64,000 nt of DNA from positions 4,712,001 to 4,776,000 of the forward strand of contig NZ_CP049919.1 of the NCBI RefSeq assembly GCF_015624425.1, written 5' to 3'. Source of the stretch: Roseateles sp. DAIF2 (GTDB lineage: Bacteria; Pseudomonadota; Gammaproteobacteria; Burkholderiales; Burkholderiaceae_C). The position numbers and the translations under genes are program-made. Shown piece after piece: positions 26,889 through 63,677 of this stretch. Every line of letters starts with the position of its first letter. The stretch's first letter is position 1. The notes under the pieces are model-generated. The model saw nothing but the letters and a program-made list of their open reading frames with translations. It had not been told where the DNA came from and made no database searches.

Positions 26889-27871
26889 GGTCGCTGCGTC
26901 TGATGAGCGCGAGCGACCAGATCGCGCTGCTGTTCCTGATCCTGTTCGGCCTGCTGGTGCTGATCACCCTGGGCGGCTTCCTGCTGTCGCTGCGCAGCGT
27001 CGAGGCGCAGCGCAGCCAGCGCTCGACCGACAACTGGCGCCAGTTCAAGCGCGACCTGAAGGCGATCTGGGTCGGCTCCTGCATGTTCTGGGCCGCCTGG
27101 GTCTCGGGGCCGATCGGCGCCACCTTGCTGTTCGGCGTGCTGTCCTTTCTGGCGCTGCGCGAGTTCATCACCCTGATGCACACGCGCCGCGCCGACCACC
27201 GCAGCCTGATCCTGGCCTTCTTCGCGATCCTGCCGCTGCAATATGTGCTGGTGGGCACGCGCCACTTCGACCTGTTCTCGGTGCTGATCCCGGTCTACGG
27301 CTTCGTCGCTATTCCCGTGGCCAGCGCGCTGGCCGACGATCCGCAGCGCTTCCTGGAGCGCAATGCCAAGATCCAGTGGGGCATCATGGTCTGCATCTAC
27401 GGTCTCTCGCATGCGCCGGCCCTGCTGCTGCTGGACTTCAAGGGCTACCAGGGCCGCGGCGCCTTCCTGCTGTTCTTCATGGTGTTCGTGGTCGGCATCG
27501 CGCAGATCGTGCAGGAGGCGGCCAGCCGCTCGCTGCGGCGCCGGCCGGTGGCGCGCCGCATCAGCCGCAGCTTCTCGCTGCGCGCCTGGTGGCTGGGCCT
27601 GGCCGCCGCGGCCGTCTGCGGCACCCTGCTGTACTGGATCACGCCCTTCAAGGCCGGCCAGGCCCTGGTGATGGCGGTGATCGCCGCCGCCGCCGGCACC
27701 CTGGGCGGCCTGGTGATGAAGGCGCTCAAGCGCGACGCCGGTGTGATCTACTGGGGCAACCGCAGCTCGATCACCGGCGCGGTTGGCCTGCTGGACCGCA
27801 TCGCGGTGCTGTGCTTCGCGGCCCCGGTGTTCTTCCATTCCGTGCGCTGGTACTTCAAGTTGGATCTCTGA
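26885..27871 (+). CDS. cdsA: Phosphatidate cytidylyltransferase (CDP-diacylglycerol synthase)
   Basis: A 328-residue polytopic membrane enzyme making CDP-DAG from phosphatidic acid and CTP. It has about eight hydrophobic helices. Conserved C-terminal residues lie around G-T-L-G-G-L-V-M-K-A-L-K-R-D-A-G-V, with a second conserved stretch S-S-I-T-G-A-V-G-L-L-D-R, which fits the family signature although the first Asp-rich part is relaxed. Its start overlaps the acyltransferase stop. Its stop overlaps the ATG of a truncated ruvC-like frame (TGATG at 27869-27873), which looks like the ancestral cdsA-ruvC junction. Confidence 0.85.
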   Translation: MRSLRLMSASDQIALLFLILFGLLVLITLGGFLLSLRSVEAQRSQRSTDNWRQFKRDLKAIWVGSCMFWAAWVSGPIGATLLFGVLSFLALREFITLMHTRRADHRSLILAFFAILPLQYVLVGTRHFDLFSVLIPVYGFVAIPVASALADDPQRFLERNAKIQWGIMVCIYGLSHAPALLLLDFKGYQGRGAFLLFFMVFVVGIAQIVQEAASRSLRRRPVARRISRSFSLRAWWLGLAAAAVCGTLLYWITPFKAGQALVMAVIAAAAGTLGGLVMKALKRDAGVIYWGNRSSITGAVGLLDRIAVLCFAAPVFFHSVRWYFKLDL

Positions 27872-28026
27872 TGCGAATTCTTGGCATCGACCCGGGTCTG
27901 CAGACCACCGGCTTTAGCTGCGGCCCGGCGCTGGCGCGCCTTCACATTCGCGATGCGAATGTGAGCCTGCGCAGAACCCCTATCAATGCCAACAACCCGC
28001 GAGGTCTTCGACCATGCGTATCCTAG
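27871..28026 (+). pseudogene. Truncated duplicate of the ruvC 5' end running into an inserted element
   Basis: An open frame of 51 codons. Its first 15 residues are identical to the first 15 of RuvC ([15 protein letters not shown]), but nine codons differ, all synonymously (9 of 45 nt). From 27916 it runs into a 62-nt two-hairpin element and then unrelated sequence. It stops at 28024-28026, inside the true ruvC, overlapping it by 13 nt. Its ATG overlaps the cdsA stop. It may preserve translational coupling between cdsA and ruvC. It is annotated as a broken copy and is not claimed to make a working protein. Confidence 0.85.
27916..27977 (+). repeat. Two-hairpin element, ruvC copy
   Basis: A 62-nt unit that also occurs at 62292-62353. 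Shared blocks are GCTRCGGCCCG at the left, TTCAC before the second hairpin, and TGAGCCTGCGC-M-GAA at the right. The main stem here is perfect: TCACATTCGC (27942-27951) pairs with GCGAATGTGA (27955-27964) around GAT. The first, smaller hairpin is GGCGC/GCGCC. The element sits between the truncated ruvC copy and the intact gene. It lies entirely within the 51-codon frame and causes no stop in it. Confidence 0.75.
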
Positions 28027-28571
28027 GCATCGACCCCGGCTTGCAGACAACGGGGTTTGGCGTCATCGATGCCGATGGCCCGCGCCTGGCCTATGTGGCC
28101 AGCGGCACGATCAAGACCACCGGCGCCCAGGGCGCGGCGATCGGTGACCTGCCGGGGCGGCTGAAGATCCTGTTCGACGGCATCCGCGAGGTCCATGCGC
28201 GCTACCAGCCGCAATGCGCGGCGGTCGAGATCGTGTTCGTCAACGTGAACCCGCAATCGACCCTGCTGCTGGGCCAGGCCCGCGGCGCGGCGCTGACGGC
28301 CCTGGTTTCCTGCGAGCTGCCGGTCAGCGAATACACCGCGCTGCAGATGAAGAAGGCCATCGTCGGCCATGGCCACGCGAAGAAGGAGCAGATCCAGATG
28401 ATGGTGCAGCGCCTGCTGAACCTGCCCGGCGAGCCTGGCAAGGACGCCGCCGACGCGCTGGGCATCGCGATCATGCATGCCCATGCGCGCGTCTCCTTCG
28501 AGGCGATGAGCCGCAACACCACGCTGCAGCGCAAGCAGCATGCGCAGTTCCGCGGCGGGCGGACCTACTGA
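28014..28571 (+). CDS. ruvC: Crossover junction endodeoxyribonuclease RuvC
   Basis: A 185-residue Holliday-junction resolvase. The four metal-binding acids are Asp7 (L-G-I-D-P-G), Glu72 (A-A-V-E-I-V-F), Asp144 and Asp147 (K-D-A-A-D-A-L). GAGGT at 28000-28004 gives it a ribosome site. The first 15 codons use codons rare in this genome (CTA, TTG, ACA, ACG, GGG), unlike the rest of the gene. Just upstream lies a truncated second copy of this 5' end. ruvA and ruvB, often next to ruvC in Burkholderiales, are not downstream; an endonuclease V-like gene converges instead. Confidence 0.97.
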
Positions 28572-61180: not shown

Positions 61181-62260
61181 TCACTTCACCATCCCCTCGA
61201 TTTCGTCCGCCACGCGCGCCGCGGCGCGCGGGCGCGCCAGGCCGCGGGCCTTCTCCGCCATCGCCAGCAGCTGCTCGCGGTCCAGCCCCTGCAGCAGGGC
61301 CAGCAGGCCCTCGGGGCTCAGCTCCTCCTGCGGCAGATGCAGGGCCGCGCCATGCTGGGCCATGAAGCGCGCGTTGTCGCGCTGATGGCTGGTGGTGCTG
61401 ACCACCAGCGGCACCAGCACACTGGGCAGGCCGGCGGCGCAAAGCTCGCTGACCGTCACCGCGCCGGCGCGGCAGATGATCAGGTCGGCCGCGGCCAGCT
61501 GGGCGGCCATGTCGTCGATGAAGGGCAGGATCTCCGCCTGCGCTCCGGCCGCCTGGTAGGCCGCCTGCACCGCGCTCAGGTTCGCCTGGCCGGCCTGGTG
61601 CACCACCTGGGGCCGCGTCGCCGCGTCGCTCCATTGCGCCAGCATCTTCGGGATCACCGCATTGATCGCGCGCGCGCCCAGCGAACCGCCCACCACCAGC
61701 ACGCGCAGCGGGCCCGTGCGGCCGGCATAGCGTTCGGCGGGTAGCGGCAGCGCCTCGATCTCGGCGCGCACCGGGTTGCCGGTCACCACCGCCTTGGCGG
61801 TCGAGGCCGCGGCCGAGCCGTCGAAGCCGAAGGCGATCTTGCGCGCCAGGCCCTTCAGCGCCTGGTTCGACATCAGCATCGCCGCATCGGCGTTCACCAG
61901 CATCAGCGGGCGGCGCATCAGCCAGGCCATCAGCCCGCCGGGGAAGCAGACATAGCCGCCCATGCCCAGCACCGCATCGGCGCTGCGCGTCACGAAGACC
62001 TGGCGCGACTGGATGAAGGCCTTCACCAGCCCCACCAGGCCGCGCAGCATGTGCATCGGACCCTTGCCACGCAGGCCCGCGAAGGCCAGCCGGTCCAGCG
62101 GGATGCCACTGGGCGGCACCAGCTTGTTCTCCATGCCCTGCTCGGTGCCGACCCAGGACACGCTCCAGCCGCGGCGCTTCATCTCTTCGGCGACTGCCAG
62201 GCCGGGGATGATGTGGCCGCCGGTGCCGGCGGCCATGATGACCAGGTGTTTCGTGCTCAT
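61181..62260 (-). CDS. murG: UDP-GlcNAc:lipid I N-acetylglucosaminyltransferase
   Basis: A 359-residue peripheral membrane GT-B glycosyltransferase converting lipid I to lipid II. The donor loop is [12 protein letters not shown], the second glycine-rich loop [10 protein letters not shown], and the acceptor region contains [18 protein letters not shown] precedes the ATG at 62260. Its start overlaps the stop of a 51-codon inserted frame rather than that of ftsW. Confidence 0.97.
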
Positions 62261-62412
62261 GCGCGACCTCCTCGCATGAGCTGTCGGTTCTGGCTACGGC
62301 CCGCGCACTGCGTGCGCTTCACGTCGCTACGCGACATGAGCCTGCGCCGAAACAGGCCATCGCCGCGCTTGACGCGCGCCGACGCCTGGCTGCCCTGCAT
62401 CCAGGCGCTCAT
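62257..62412 (-). CDS. 51-codon inserted frame between ftsW and murG
   Basis: A 51-residue basic, Arg- and Ser-rich frame. Its ATG overlaps the ftsW stop (ATGA) and its stop overlaps the murG start (ATGA), so translation can pass ftsW to frame to murG. The last ten residues before the stop, [10 protein letters not shown], repeat the C terminus of FtsW, with four synonymous codon differences. In its middle it holds the two-hairpin element at 62292-62353. I would not claim a function. It is most simply an insertion that stays open in frame. Confidence 0.6.
62292..62353 (+). repeat. Two-hairpin element, ftsW-murG copy
   Basis: A 62-nt unit in the same family as 27916-27977 and of equal length, lying on the strand opposite to the operon. 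The ends GGCTACGGCCCG and TGAGCCTGCGCCGAA match the ruvC copy. The first hairpin is GCGCAC-TGC-GTGCGC (shifted by a base) and the second TCACGTCGC-TAC-GCGACATGA with one mismatch. The stem sequences differ from the ruvC copy but still pair. Confidence 0.75.
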
Positions 62413-63677
62413 GCTCGGCCTCCTCGCATGAGTTGCCTGTTTTCAATATCTATCCTCAAACAGATCGCCAGCGCCACACAGTTCATCAGGATCGCCGAGC
62501 CGCCGAAGCTCATCAGCGGCAGGGTCAGGCCCTTGGTCGGCAGCGCGCCCAGGTTCACGCCCATATTGATGAAGGCCTGGCCGCCCATCCAGATGCCGAT
62601 GCCCTGGGCATAGAGACCGGCGAACACGCGGTCCAGCGCGACCGCCTGGCGGCCGATGTGGAACAGGCGGCGCGACAGCCAGAAGAAGGCGCAGATCACC
62701 AGGGCCACGCCGACCAGGCCCAGCTCCTCGCCGATCACCGCCAGCAGGAAGTCGGTATGCGCCTCGGGCAGGTAATGCAGCTTCTCGACGCTGCCGCCCA
62801 GGCCCTGGCCGAACCATTCGCCGCGGCCGAAGGCGATCAGCGAATGGGTCAGTTGGTAGGCCTTGCCCTGCGCGTACTTCTCGTCCCAGGGGTTCAGGTA
62901 GGCGAAGATGCGCTCGCGGCGGAACTCGCTGAAGGTGATCATCAGCACGAAGGCGCCGACCAGCACCGCGACGATCAGGAAGAACATGCGGCCGTTGACG
63001 CCGCCCAGGAACAGGATGCCCATCGCGATCGCCGCGATCACCATGAAGGCGCCCATGTCCGGCTCGGCCAGCAGCAGCACGCCCACCACCGCCAGCGACA
63101 CCGCCATCGGCCAGACCGCGCGGACGAAGTTCTCCTTCACCTCCATCTTGCGCATCATGTAGTTGGCCGCGTACATCGCGATCGCCAGCTTGGCCAGCTC
63201 GGAGGGCTGGAAGTTCATCACCCCCAGCGGCAGCCAGCGACGCGCGCCGTTGACGCCCTTGCCGATGCCCGGGATCAGCACGATCACCAGCAGCACCAGG
63301 GCCACGACGAACAGCCAGGGCGCCGCACGCTCCCAGGTTGCGATCGGCACCTGCACCACCACCAGCGCCGCCAGCAGCGCCAGGCTGATCGCCACCACAT
63401 GGCGCACCAGGAAATGGGTCGGCAGGTACTTCGCGAACTTGGGGTTGTCCGGCAGCGCGATCGAGGCCGAATAGACCATCAGCAGGCCCAGCGCCAGCAG
63501 CGCCACCACCACCCAGACCAGGGTCACGTCGAAGTTCGAGAGCTTGGCCGGCTGGCCCGAGGACACGCTGACCCAGTCGCGCACCGGCACCTCGCCGCCG
63601 CGCTCGCCGGCAGCGGCGCCGCGCTGGAACAGGCCGGCCGCGCGGTCGCGCAGGGTCTGGAGCAGGGCCATGCTCAT
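62409..63677 (-). CDS. ftsW: Septal peptidoglycan glycosyltransferase FtsW
   Basis: A 422-residue polytopic SEDS-family protein. Ten helices follow an N-terminal cytoplasmic stretch of about 45 residues. Family marks are [37 protein letters not shown] and [16 protein letters not shown]. Its start overlaps the murD stop by one base (TGATG). Its last ten codons are duplicated just upstream of murG. Confidence 0.96.

Follow-up and report, generated by a model that had tools for sequence, protein, structure and literature searches.

In integrons, gene cassettes are arranged head-to-tail, attC sites can fold into a stem with an internal loop and entry takes place at a short core. Some phages and integrative elements that enter near the end of a target gene restore that end, and CTX-type phage enters as folded single-stranded DNA. 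The family of small elements described here shares with integron cassettes its head-to-tail units, a foldable stem with an internal loop and entry at a short core, but its arms misfit the attC boxes, it carries no gene and it has no link to an integrase locus. Like the end-restoring phages and elements, it enters near the end of a conserved gene and carries a replacement end, but it measures only about 90–160 bp, is without an integrase of its own and uses about 16 target sites. By analogy with CTX-type phage, a folded strand would rebuild a double-stranded core in the model proposed below.

The family is probably the uncharacterized repeat named BRE in 2011, with which it is matched by description only. 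The passages of that report on the repeat give BRE as a GC-rich chromosomal sequence of about 90 bp from Betaproteobacteria (Comamonadaceae, Bordetella), tandem in variable number, overlapping or inside ORFs and suspected of mobility (Hot et al., 2011; PMC3110155). Our family is likewise a tandem chromosomal repeat of Betaproteobacteria of about 90 bp (arrays at 87 and 89 bp) that also occurs in ORFs; in contrast, a fold, a target core, a duplicated gene end, a complementary arm and excision do not appear in those passages. In the relevant passages of PMC10969869, the Rickettsia palindromic elements are small palindromic DNA lying in frame inside genes, as do our copies in RND-type transporter genes, but half of the copies examined here have a duplicated host end and many lie at gene ends or between genes. 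A search of the open-licence literature found no account of repeats of this kind restoring gene ends, and within that literature we are dealing with a real, widespread and apparently undescribed behaviour of what is probably an already named repeat.

The window, the whole stretch of DNA that was analysed, covers 64 kb of a genome assembled as a single contig of 6.01 Mb. An earlier note on its sequence had described two 62-nt two-hairpin units at 27916–27977 (unit 1, ruvC) and 62292–62353 (unit 2, ftsW–murG), and a direct check of the sequence finds both as claimed. A sequence-only model made from the two units matches just these two across the genome (6.0 Mb; E = 3e-15 and 2.5e-14, the next match having E = 0.02), and the pattern CTTCAC..TGAGCCTGCGC occurs twice, with no occurrence of the reversed control pattern. 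The conserved core, E, is about 70 nt long, slightly longer than the units as first drawn (Table 1). The duplicated gene end described beside each unit is present, as are the two 51-codon frames, and at ruvC the start codon of the detached copy overlaps the stop of an upstream cytidylyltransferase-like gene. The units had also been said to lie in opposite orientation to their operons; since unit 1 runs with ruvC and unit 2 against ftsW–murG, this holds for unit 2 only. Neither of the two complete cassettes of the host (143 and 152 bp) has any enzyme-coding content. Elsewhere in the window, a weak structure-model match at 2714–2792 (19 bits, E = 0.006) is probably due to chance.

Table 1. Features of the two units, in window coordinates.
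Feature	Position	Strand	Description
D1 at ruvC	27871..27915	+	Detached ruvC start (ATG and 14 codons); end = core CTTT
Element E at ruvC	27909..27979	+	Structure-model match, 95 bits
P1 5' strand, ruvC copy	27911..27918	+	Pairs with 27971-27978; imperfect here
Hairpin 1, ruvC copy	27927..27940	+	GGCGC/GCGCC
Hairpin 2, ruvC copy	27942..27964	+	TCACATTCGC/GCGAATGTGA
P1 3' strand, ruvC copy	27971..27978	+	Continues into T'
T' at ruvC	27975..27980	+	AACCCC, complementary to T GGGGTT at 28052-28057
Spacer S at ruvC	27981..28013	+	Precedes second ruvC start; GCGAGG-type stretch, possible ribosome site
D2 at ruvC	28014..28058	+	Start in present use by ruvC; end = core GTTT
51-codon frame at ruvC	27871..28026	+	D1 through E; length varies in relatives
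D1 at ftsW-murG	62256..62291	+ (genes on -)	ftsW end, murG ribosome site and start; end = core TTCT
Element E at ftsW-murG	62285..62354	+	Antisense to genes
T' at ftsW-murG	62350..62357	+	AAACAGGC, complementary to T GCCTGTTT in D2
Spacer S at ftsW-murG	62355..62407	+	First three bases shared with T'
D2 at ftsW-murG	62408..62443	+	ftsW end in present use; end = core TTTT
51-codon bridging frame at ftsW-murG	62257..62412	-	ftsW stop (D2) to murG start (D1)

Folded as DNA, unit 1 has a z score of -3.4 and unit 2 only -1.2 (+ strand) or -2.4 (- strand). The fold is supported by covariation in an alignment of 48 copies made with MAFFT and not fitted to the model, the rows of which are distinct and were chosen from different loci and targets. 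The consensus comprises P1 (8 bp), a 3 × 3 internal loop, P2 (3 bp) and two hairpins, with 89.4% paired. Its covariation score is 0.269, compared with 0.084 on shuffling and no more than 0.084 with the partners slid. All four helices add to this signal, and 17 of the 26 pairs have changed on both sides, which bears out the claim that the stems differ in sequence and still pair. Two departures recur, namely a T–G pair in P1 (47 of 48 copies; columns 8/72) and a C–A mismatch in hairpin 2 (columns 40/58; not paired in 25 of 48), and we note that these could mark which strand folds. With respect to the features of MITEs, the P1 arms are inverted relative to each other and the flanking duplications vary in length. 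A known RNA family was dropped as the identity of the units on the Rfam results (no match in the window at the gathering threshold and none at E ≤ 1 in ten loci).

The earlier note had suggested a covariance-model search of this genome and its relatives. Model R2, built from five copies at the ruvC site (the host genome and four relatives), recovers the ftsW copy, which was absent from the training set, with E = 1.6e-12. In the host genome it gives six matches at E ≤ 0.05, of which the sixth is near chance and five are convincing: ruvC, ftsW–murG, argF (L125), proB (L127) and a copy upstream of lepA (L126), the last three genes being named from their translated ends. Further copies are found in 169 of 399 genomes sampled from the host's family, representing 77 of 141 genera, compared with three of 369 genomes in a class-wide draw (E ≤ 1e-4), one of the three lying outside the family. 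One metagenome-assembled genome, G239, has 65 matches at E ≤ 0.05. A stricter pattern gave 110 stretches in named genomes, among them Acidovorax, Simplicispira, Ideonella, Roseateles, Rubrivivax, Thiobacillus, Gallionella and Methylophilaceae; a few matches, for example in Yinghuangia, look like chance. Roseateles saccharophilus has the copy at ftsW (L215). Sequence context was listed for 80 of the 110 stretches and for eight viral ones, and the remainder entered through the duplication test only. Units also occur in tandem, head-to-tail, with periods of 87 to 161 and short arrays at 87 and 89 bp.

Carriage by plasmids or phages was considered and is weakened: one element used as a BLAST query had no match among plasmid and phage records, although the pattern search found the element in eight viral contigs. 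In seven of the eight (L256–L262) it is placed after a terminator-like GCGGGTTT or GTGGGTTT, and phage portal and capsid families are among the proteins near copies. A linked enzyme gene was ruled against, as no transposase or recombinase is among the Pfam families listed (25 of 77) for 100 proteins from 304 ORFs near copies; the commonest families there are PAPS reductase (6), SAM synthetase (5) and lipid A acyltransferase (4).

The duplicated gene ends were surveyed in 161 distinct copies from 137 loci, mostly fetched because they bear an element, with tandem copies counted separately. We refer to the copy of the gene end detached from its gene as D1 and to that carried beyond E as D2, which was sought only on the 3' side of E. 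At a threshold of 21/30 there is a duplication across the element in 80 of the 161 copies, the maximum after one shuffle per copy being 19/30, and none is detectable in the other 81. The duplicated copies form 21 sequence clusters but, by reading, about 16 different sites, because argF, metK and recA each fill more than one cluster. The earlier view of a mobile, non-autonomous element tied to duplicated gene ends is supported by the 169/399 genomes, the 80/161 copies and the lack of any enzyme in the units.

In the gene-end form the order is D1, the folded core E, an arm T', a spacer S and the carried end D2. At the framed loci and ruvC, D2 lies between E and the gene body; the element therefore runs antisense to the gene at 3' ends and with it at 5' ends, its orientation following the core. 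With an arrow marking the core, the reading frames run into the carried end as DEAEN↓RMHVQKALMEYLLLGRVA-stop in argF, KLYEI↓GAGTSEIRRMLIGRELFAETM-stop in an acyl-CoA dehydrogenase, WERTDK↓AAALRAAAGL-stop in metK, LAREIEN↓RVRESLG... in recA, HRDN↓LVLV-stop in proB and TLEEK↓MNKIFEKFGM-stop in a cheY-type gene, and ftsW is framed likewise. The acyl-CoA dehydrogenase, recA, proB and cheY were named from these peptides; for argF, ftsW and metK the Pfam scan shows the families as well. The argF copy of the host encodes NRMHVQKALMEYLLLGRIG-stop on both sides.

D1/D2 identity between core and stop, compared with that after the stop, falls from 0.94 to 0.35 in ftsW (n = 7), from 0.84 to 0.34 in the acyl-CoA dehydrogenase (n = 4) and from 1.00 to 0.20 in the L193 copy. 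The fall is less sharp in argF (0.90 to 0.54, n = 18; 0.97 to 0.68 in another argF frame class), and there is little or none in L149 (0.97 to 0.95), L134 (0.91 to 0.95), L152 (0.97 to 0.80), L073 (1.00 to 1.00) and metK-type copies (0.93–0.95 to 0.62–0.68); some of the low-fall copies are tandem units. For the 5'-end targets ruvC and L189 the extent of the duplication was judged by eye. Identity that is high from core to stop and then falls indicates that, for the larger groups, what has been duplicated corresponds to the stretch of gene severed by the insertion, so that the element supplies the lost end. In these groups the carried copy completes the target gene, the 81 copies without a duplication being the exception. 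The larger target groups thus show, as read from their sequences, a gene-end-restoring anatomy.

The same observations bear on ordinary homologous recombination, by which alleles comprising E and a foreign gene end would be imported by transformation, the distal join being made at microhomology to the end of the element and tandems arising by slippage. The end of D1/D2 identity at the stop codon in the larger groups speaks for it, and the differences between D2 and D1 are often of the kind expected of an imported allele. At ruvC, a clean division into a native D1 and a foreign D2 failed, since it is D2 and not D1 that is nearer to the gene of the same-genus genome G002 (6 and 4 compared with 10 and 6 differences of 42). 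Across ten genomes D1 and D2 of ruvC differ by 49 nucleotides in synonymous codons and by five non-synonymous differences, three of these in G019, where D1 is shifted by a base. The pattern is as if the detached copy had been kept or only recently detached; in G336, in which the upstream gene has moved, translation shows the detached ruvC D1 to be decayed. Pairs of D1 and D2 in 3'-end frames (59 pairs, some of the frames being doubtful) differ synonymously at 119 nucleotides and non-synonymously at 101, three pairs contributing 44 of the latter.

Empty sites allow a further comparison. At ruvC, G038, G201, G278 and G405 have a single start and no insertion, and in G345, G185 and G002 the genes are separated by DNA other than E. 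In G002 (L025), a member of the same genus, this amounts to about 1 kb between the upstream gene and ruvC, which suggests that the ruvC junction has been disturbed repeatedly. The ftsW–murG site is empty by sequence in G002 and G009, and further genomes look empty from overlapping BLAST pieces. Within the host's genus the flanks of G001 and G002 are the closest (identity 0.935/0.939, compared with 0.895/0.903 for the host, G000, and G001). The cassette common to G000 and G001 has normal divergence (E 60/63, S 47/53), and this drift of S and E, in the manner of vertical DNA, speaks for homologous recombination. The empty gene end of G002 has no differences from D1 of G001 (0/36) and 7/36 from D2, and the joins read GGTTCT↓CGATATC in G002, GGTTCT↓GGC-E in G001 and D2-GTTTT↓CAATATC on the other side. 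The simplest history of these sequences would be a loss in G002 exactly at the core; alternatively, there could have been separate insertions in G000 and G001, or an exchange of the locus. G000 and G001 differ at three positions in D1 without any change to the encoded ten-residue peptide, and D1 may have been kept here because it contains the ribosome site and start of murG. The position of the G002 join at the core, and not within D1/D2, argues against homologous recombination, as does the fact that the distal join uses one and the same end of the element at about 16 sites. Together with the matching of T' to D2 described next, which it leaves unexplained, this makes homologous recombination an unlikely source of the family. 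In our view, the mobility of the family is well supported and precise excision at one site is supported.

Beyond the 3' strand of E lies the arm T', which tends to be complementary to the start of D2 next to the core. T' is complementary to its own D2 at 8/11 or better in 54 of 80 copies, compared with 9.3% of 5386 pairings with the D2 of other clusters and 28 of 80 with the copy's own D1. The stems formed by T' with its partner T reach 15–18 bp in the RND-type transporter, proB and some other copies. In the host genome T' differs with each T, at ruvC and ftsW (Table 1) and at argF (GAATCGGATGC for GCATCCGATTC), and so follows each target. A stem search in 88 copies left 23 without a stem under the threshold, including five of ten ruvC copies (no exact 6-bp stem), and a few of the stems listed are not located at the core. 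The matching arm suggests that base pairing with the host gene belongs to the reaction. A retroelement or group II-like partner that copies the target sequence into T' during insertion would account for T' being an inverted copy, up to 18 nt long, of the host sequence beside the core. Reverse transcriptase (RVT_1) is, however, missing from six of 18 genomes searched (G239, G312, G379, G317, G333 and G001) and present in the other 12, and we regard such a partner as very unlikely.

We think it reasonably likely that both units belong to a single family of small integrative cassettes that lack an enzyme and are inserted site-specifically by a recombinase acting in trans. In this model the point of entry would be a TTYT↓C-type core close to the end of a conserved gene. 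On one side the end of E would take the place of the host sequence that lies 3' of TTYT, and on the other side that host sequence would be joined by the core of D2. The gene body would thereby be joined to D2 and completed, leaving D1 orphaned or still serving a neighbour, as with the ribosome site of murG, and a precise exit could restore D1. D2 may first have been acquired when an excision took place at a core within the host gene rather than at the proper end of the element.

More speculatively, recombination might act on a folded, perhaps single-stranded, circle in which an E lobe and a T'/D2 lobe meet at the core, and T' would follow D2 because the reaction uses this two-lobe form. In predicted folds of such circles all six units (two from the host genome and four others) beat their shuffles (60 each; z from -3.9 to -10, to which E's own fold contributes a part in every case). 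The lobes meet at the core in four of the six (the host ftsW unit, argF in G333 and G266, and RND in G119) and do not in the host ruvC unit and the G391 proB unit. In view of these folds we prefer a folded circle as the form that recombines, but purely as a proposal. That the family constitutes a class of mobile DNA consisting of circular single-stranded dumbbells of about 90–160 nt, their lobes being a recognition fold and a host gene end paired to its arm, inserted and removed precisely at the TTYT↓C core by a host recombinase, is a tentative idea that we hold to be doubtful. If it were true, housekeeping genes would carry exchangeable end pieces. Small repeats in bacteria tend to be regarded as inert. 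In the present case an element without genes could live near conserved gene ends by bringing a spare end, with the gene still working. The family explains odd duplications of gene ends, and short overlapping frames, in many genomes; the model predicts an excision product that can be tested for, and it may suggest how the BRE-type repeats known since 2011 make their living.

As to the recombinase, the cassettes could be recombined in trans by integron integrases that act on the T'-S-D2-T hairpin as an attC-like site. Tandem arrays of the element resemble cassette arrays, and an integron integrase scores above the curated cut-off in 172 of 399 family genomes, including the host (full-length, G000:C1:5062329-5063276). 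Integrase and element are associated with an odds ratio of 1.78 (p = 0.007, kinship ignored), on the basis of 155 strong integrase matches hand-selected from 199 (best E below about 1e-100); in this selection, 21 of the 30 genomes with five or more copies have an integrase. This association is weak, however, and G379 (11 copies), G145 (8) and G329 (7) fall outside the 155. Within 4.6–12 kb around six integrase genes the best element match has E = 0.005 and lies inside an integrase gene. Furthermore, the consensus of the attC core boxes is RYYYAAC/GTTRRRY, which the element arms, GCCGMAAC/GTTKTGGC, do not fit. Taken together, these points make integron integrases a rather unlikely agent. The earlier note had named a REP-type transposase as a possible partner, and movement of a REP/RAYT or IS200-type element by a Y1 transposase would suit small hairpin repeats in high copy. 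Y1_Tnp was found in only five of ten genomes searched and is missing from G239 with its 65 matches, as well as from G139, G312, G148 and G329, and we consider this partner highly improbable.

Insertions are targeted to a TTYT↓C-type core, which lies within conserved genes or close to their ends. The suggestion that the element is specialized for tight gene junctions is not supported by the wider sample: some copies follow terminators, some sit within another repeat, and others are placed in other intergenic DNA or, in frame, within RND-type transporter genes. In the last of these (L078, L080, L083, L084, L144, L201 and L204) the element is read through in frame and in the gene's direction, encoding a peptide like VSAQAHVGxADVKxAxAxGRSQN after E-N, and in several copies a partial repeat of the host peptide follows that of the element. 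These genes were named from VDDAIVMIEN-type peptides and one Pfam ACR_tran match. In some frame, 55 of 149 copies are open for 65 codons on either side, but many of these frames are probably not genes, given the GC-rich DNA. Nor is the length of 51 codons a shared feature: the ruvC frame is 43 codons long in G001 and 34 in G015, and lengths vary at ftsW–murG, where the bridging frame is open in all eight other loci examined (L217 and L226 being outside the set). A functional 51-codon peptide was rejected, as the ruvC frame is not conserved and, at ftsW–murG, coupling between the genes is a simpler reason for the frame to be open.

Several further positions may be mentioned. In L126, which in the host genome lies upstream of the lepA-like start, and in L082, L089, L093 and L122 the element directly follows a similar T-run terminator. 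Copies L112, L113, L116, L117 and L119 of G239 split another short repeat, CCCCACGCTC..GCTGCCCCC, the empty form of which occurs elsewhere in the fetched loci. Finally, the copy in L196 lies beside a sequence resembling part of a tRNA gene, which may be a further target.
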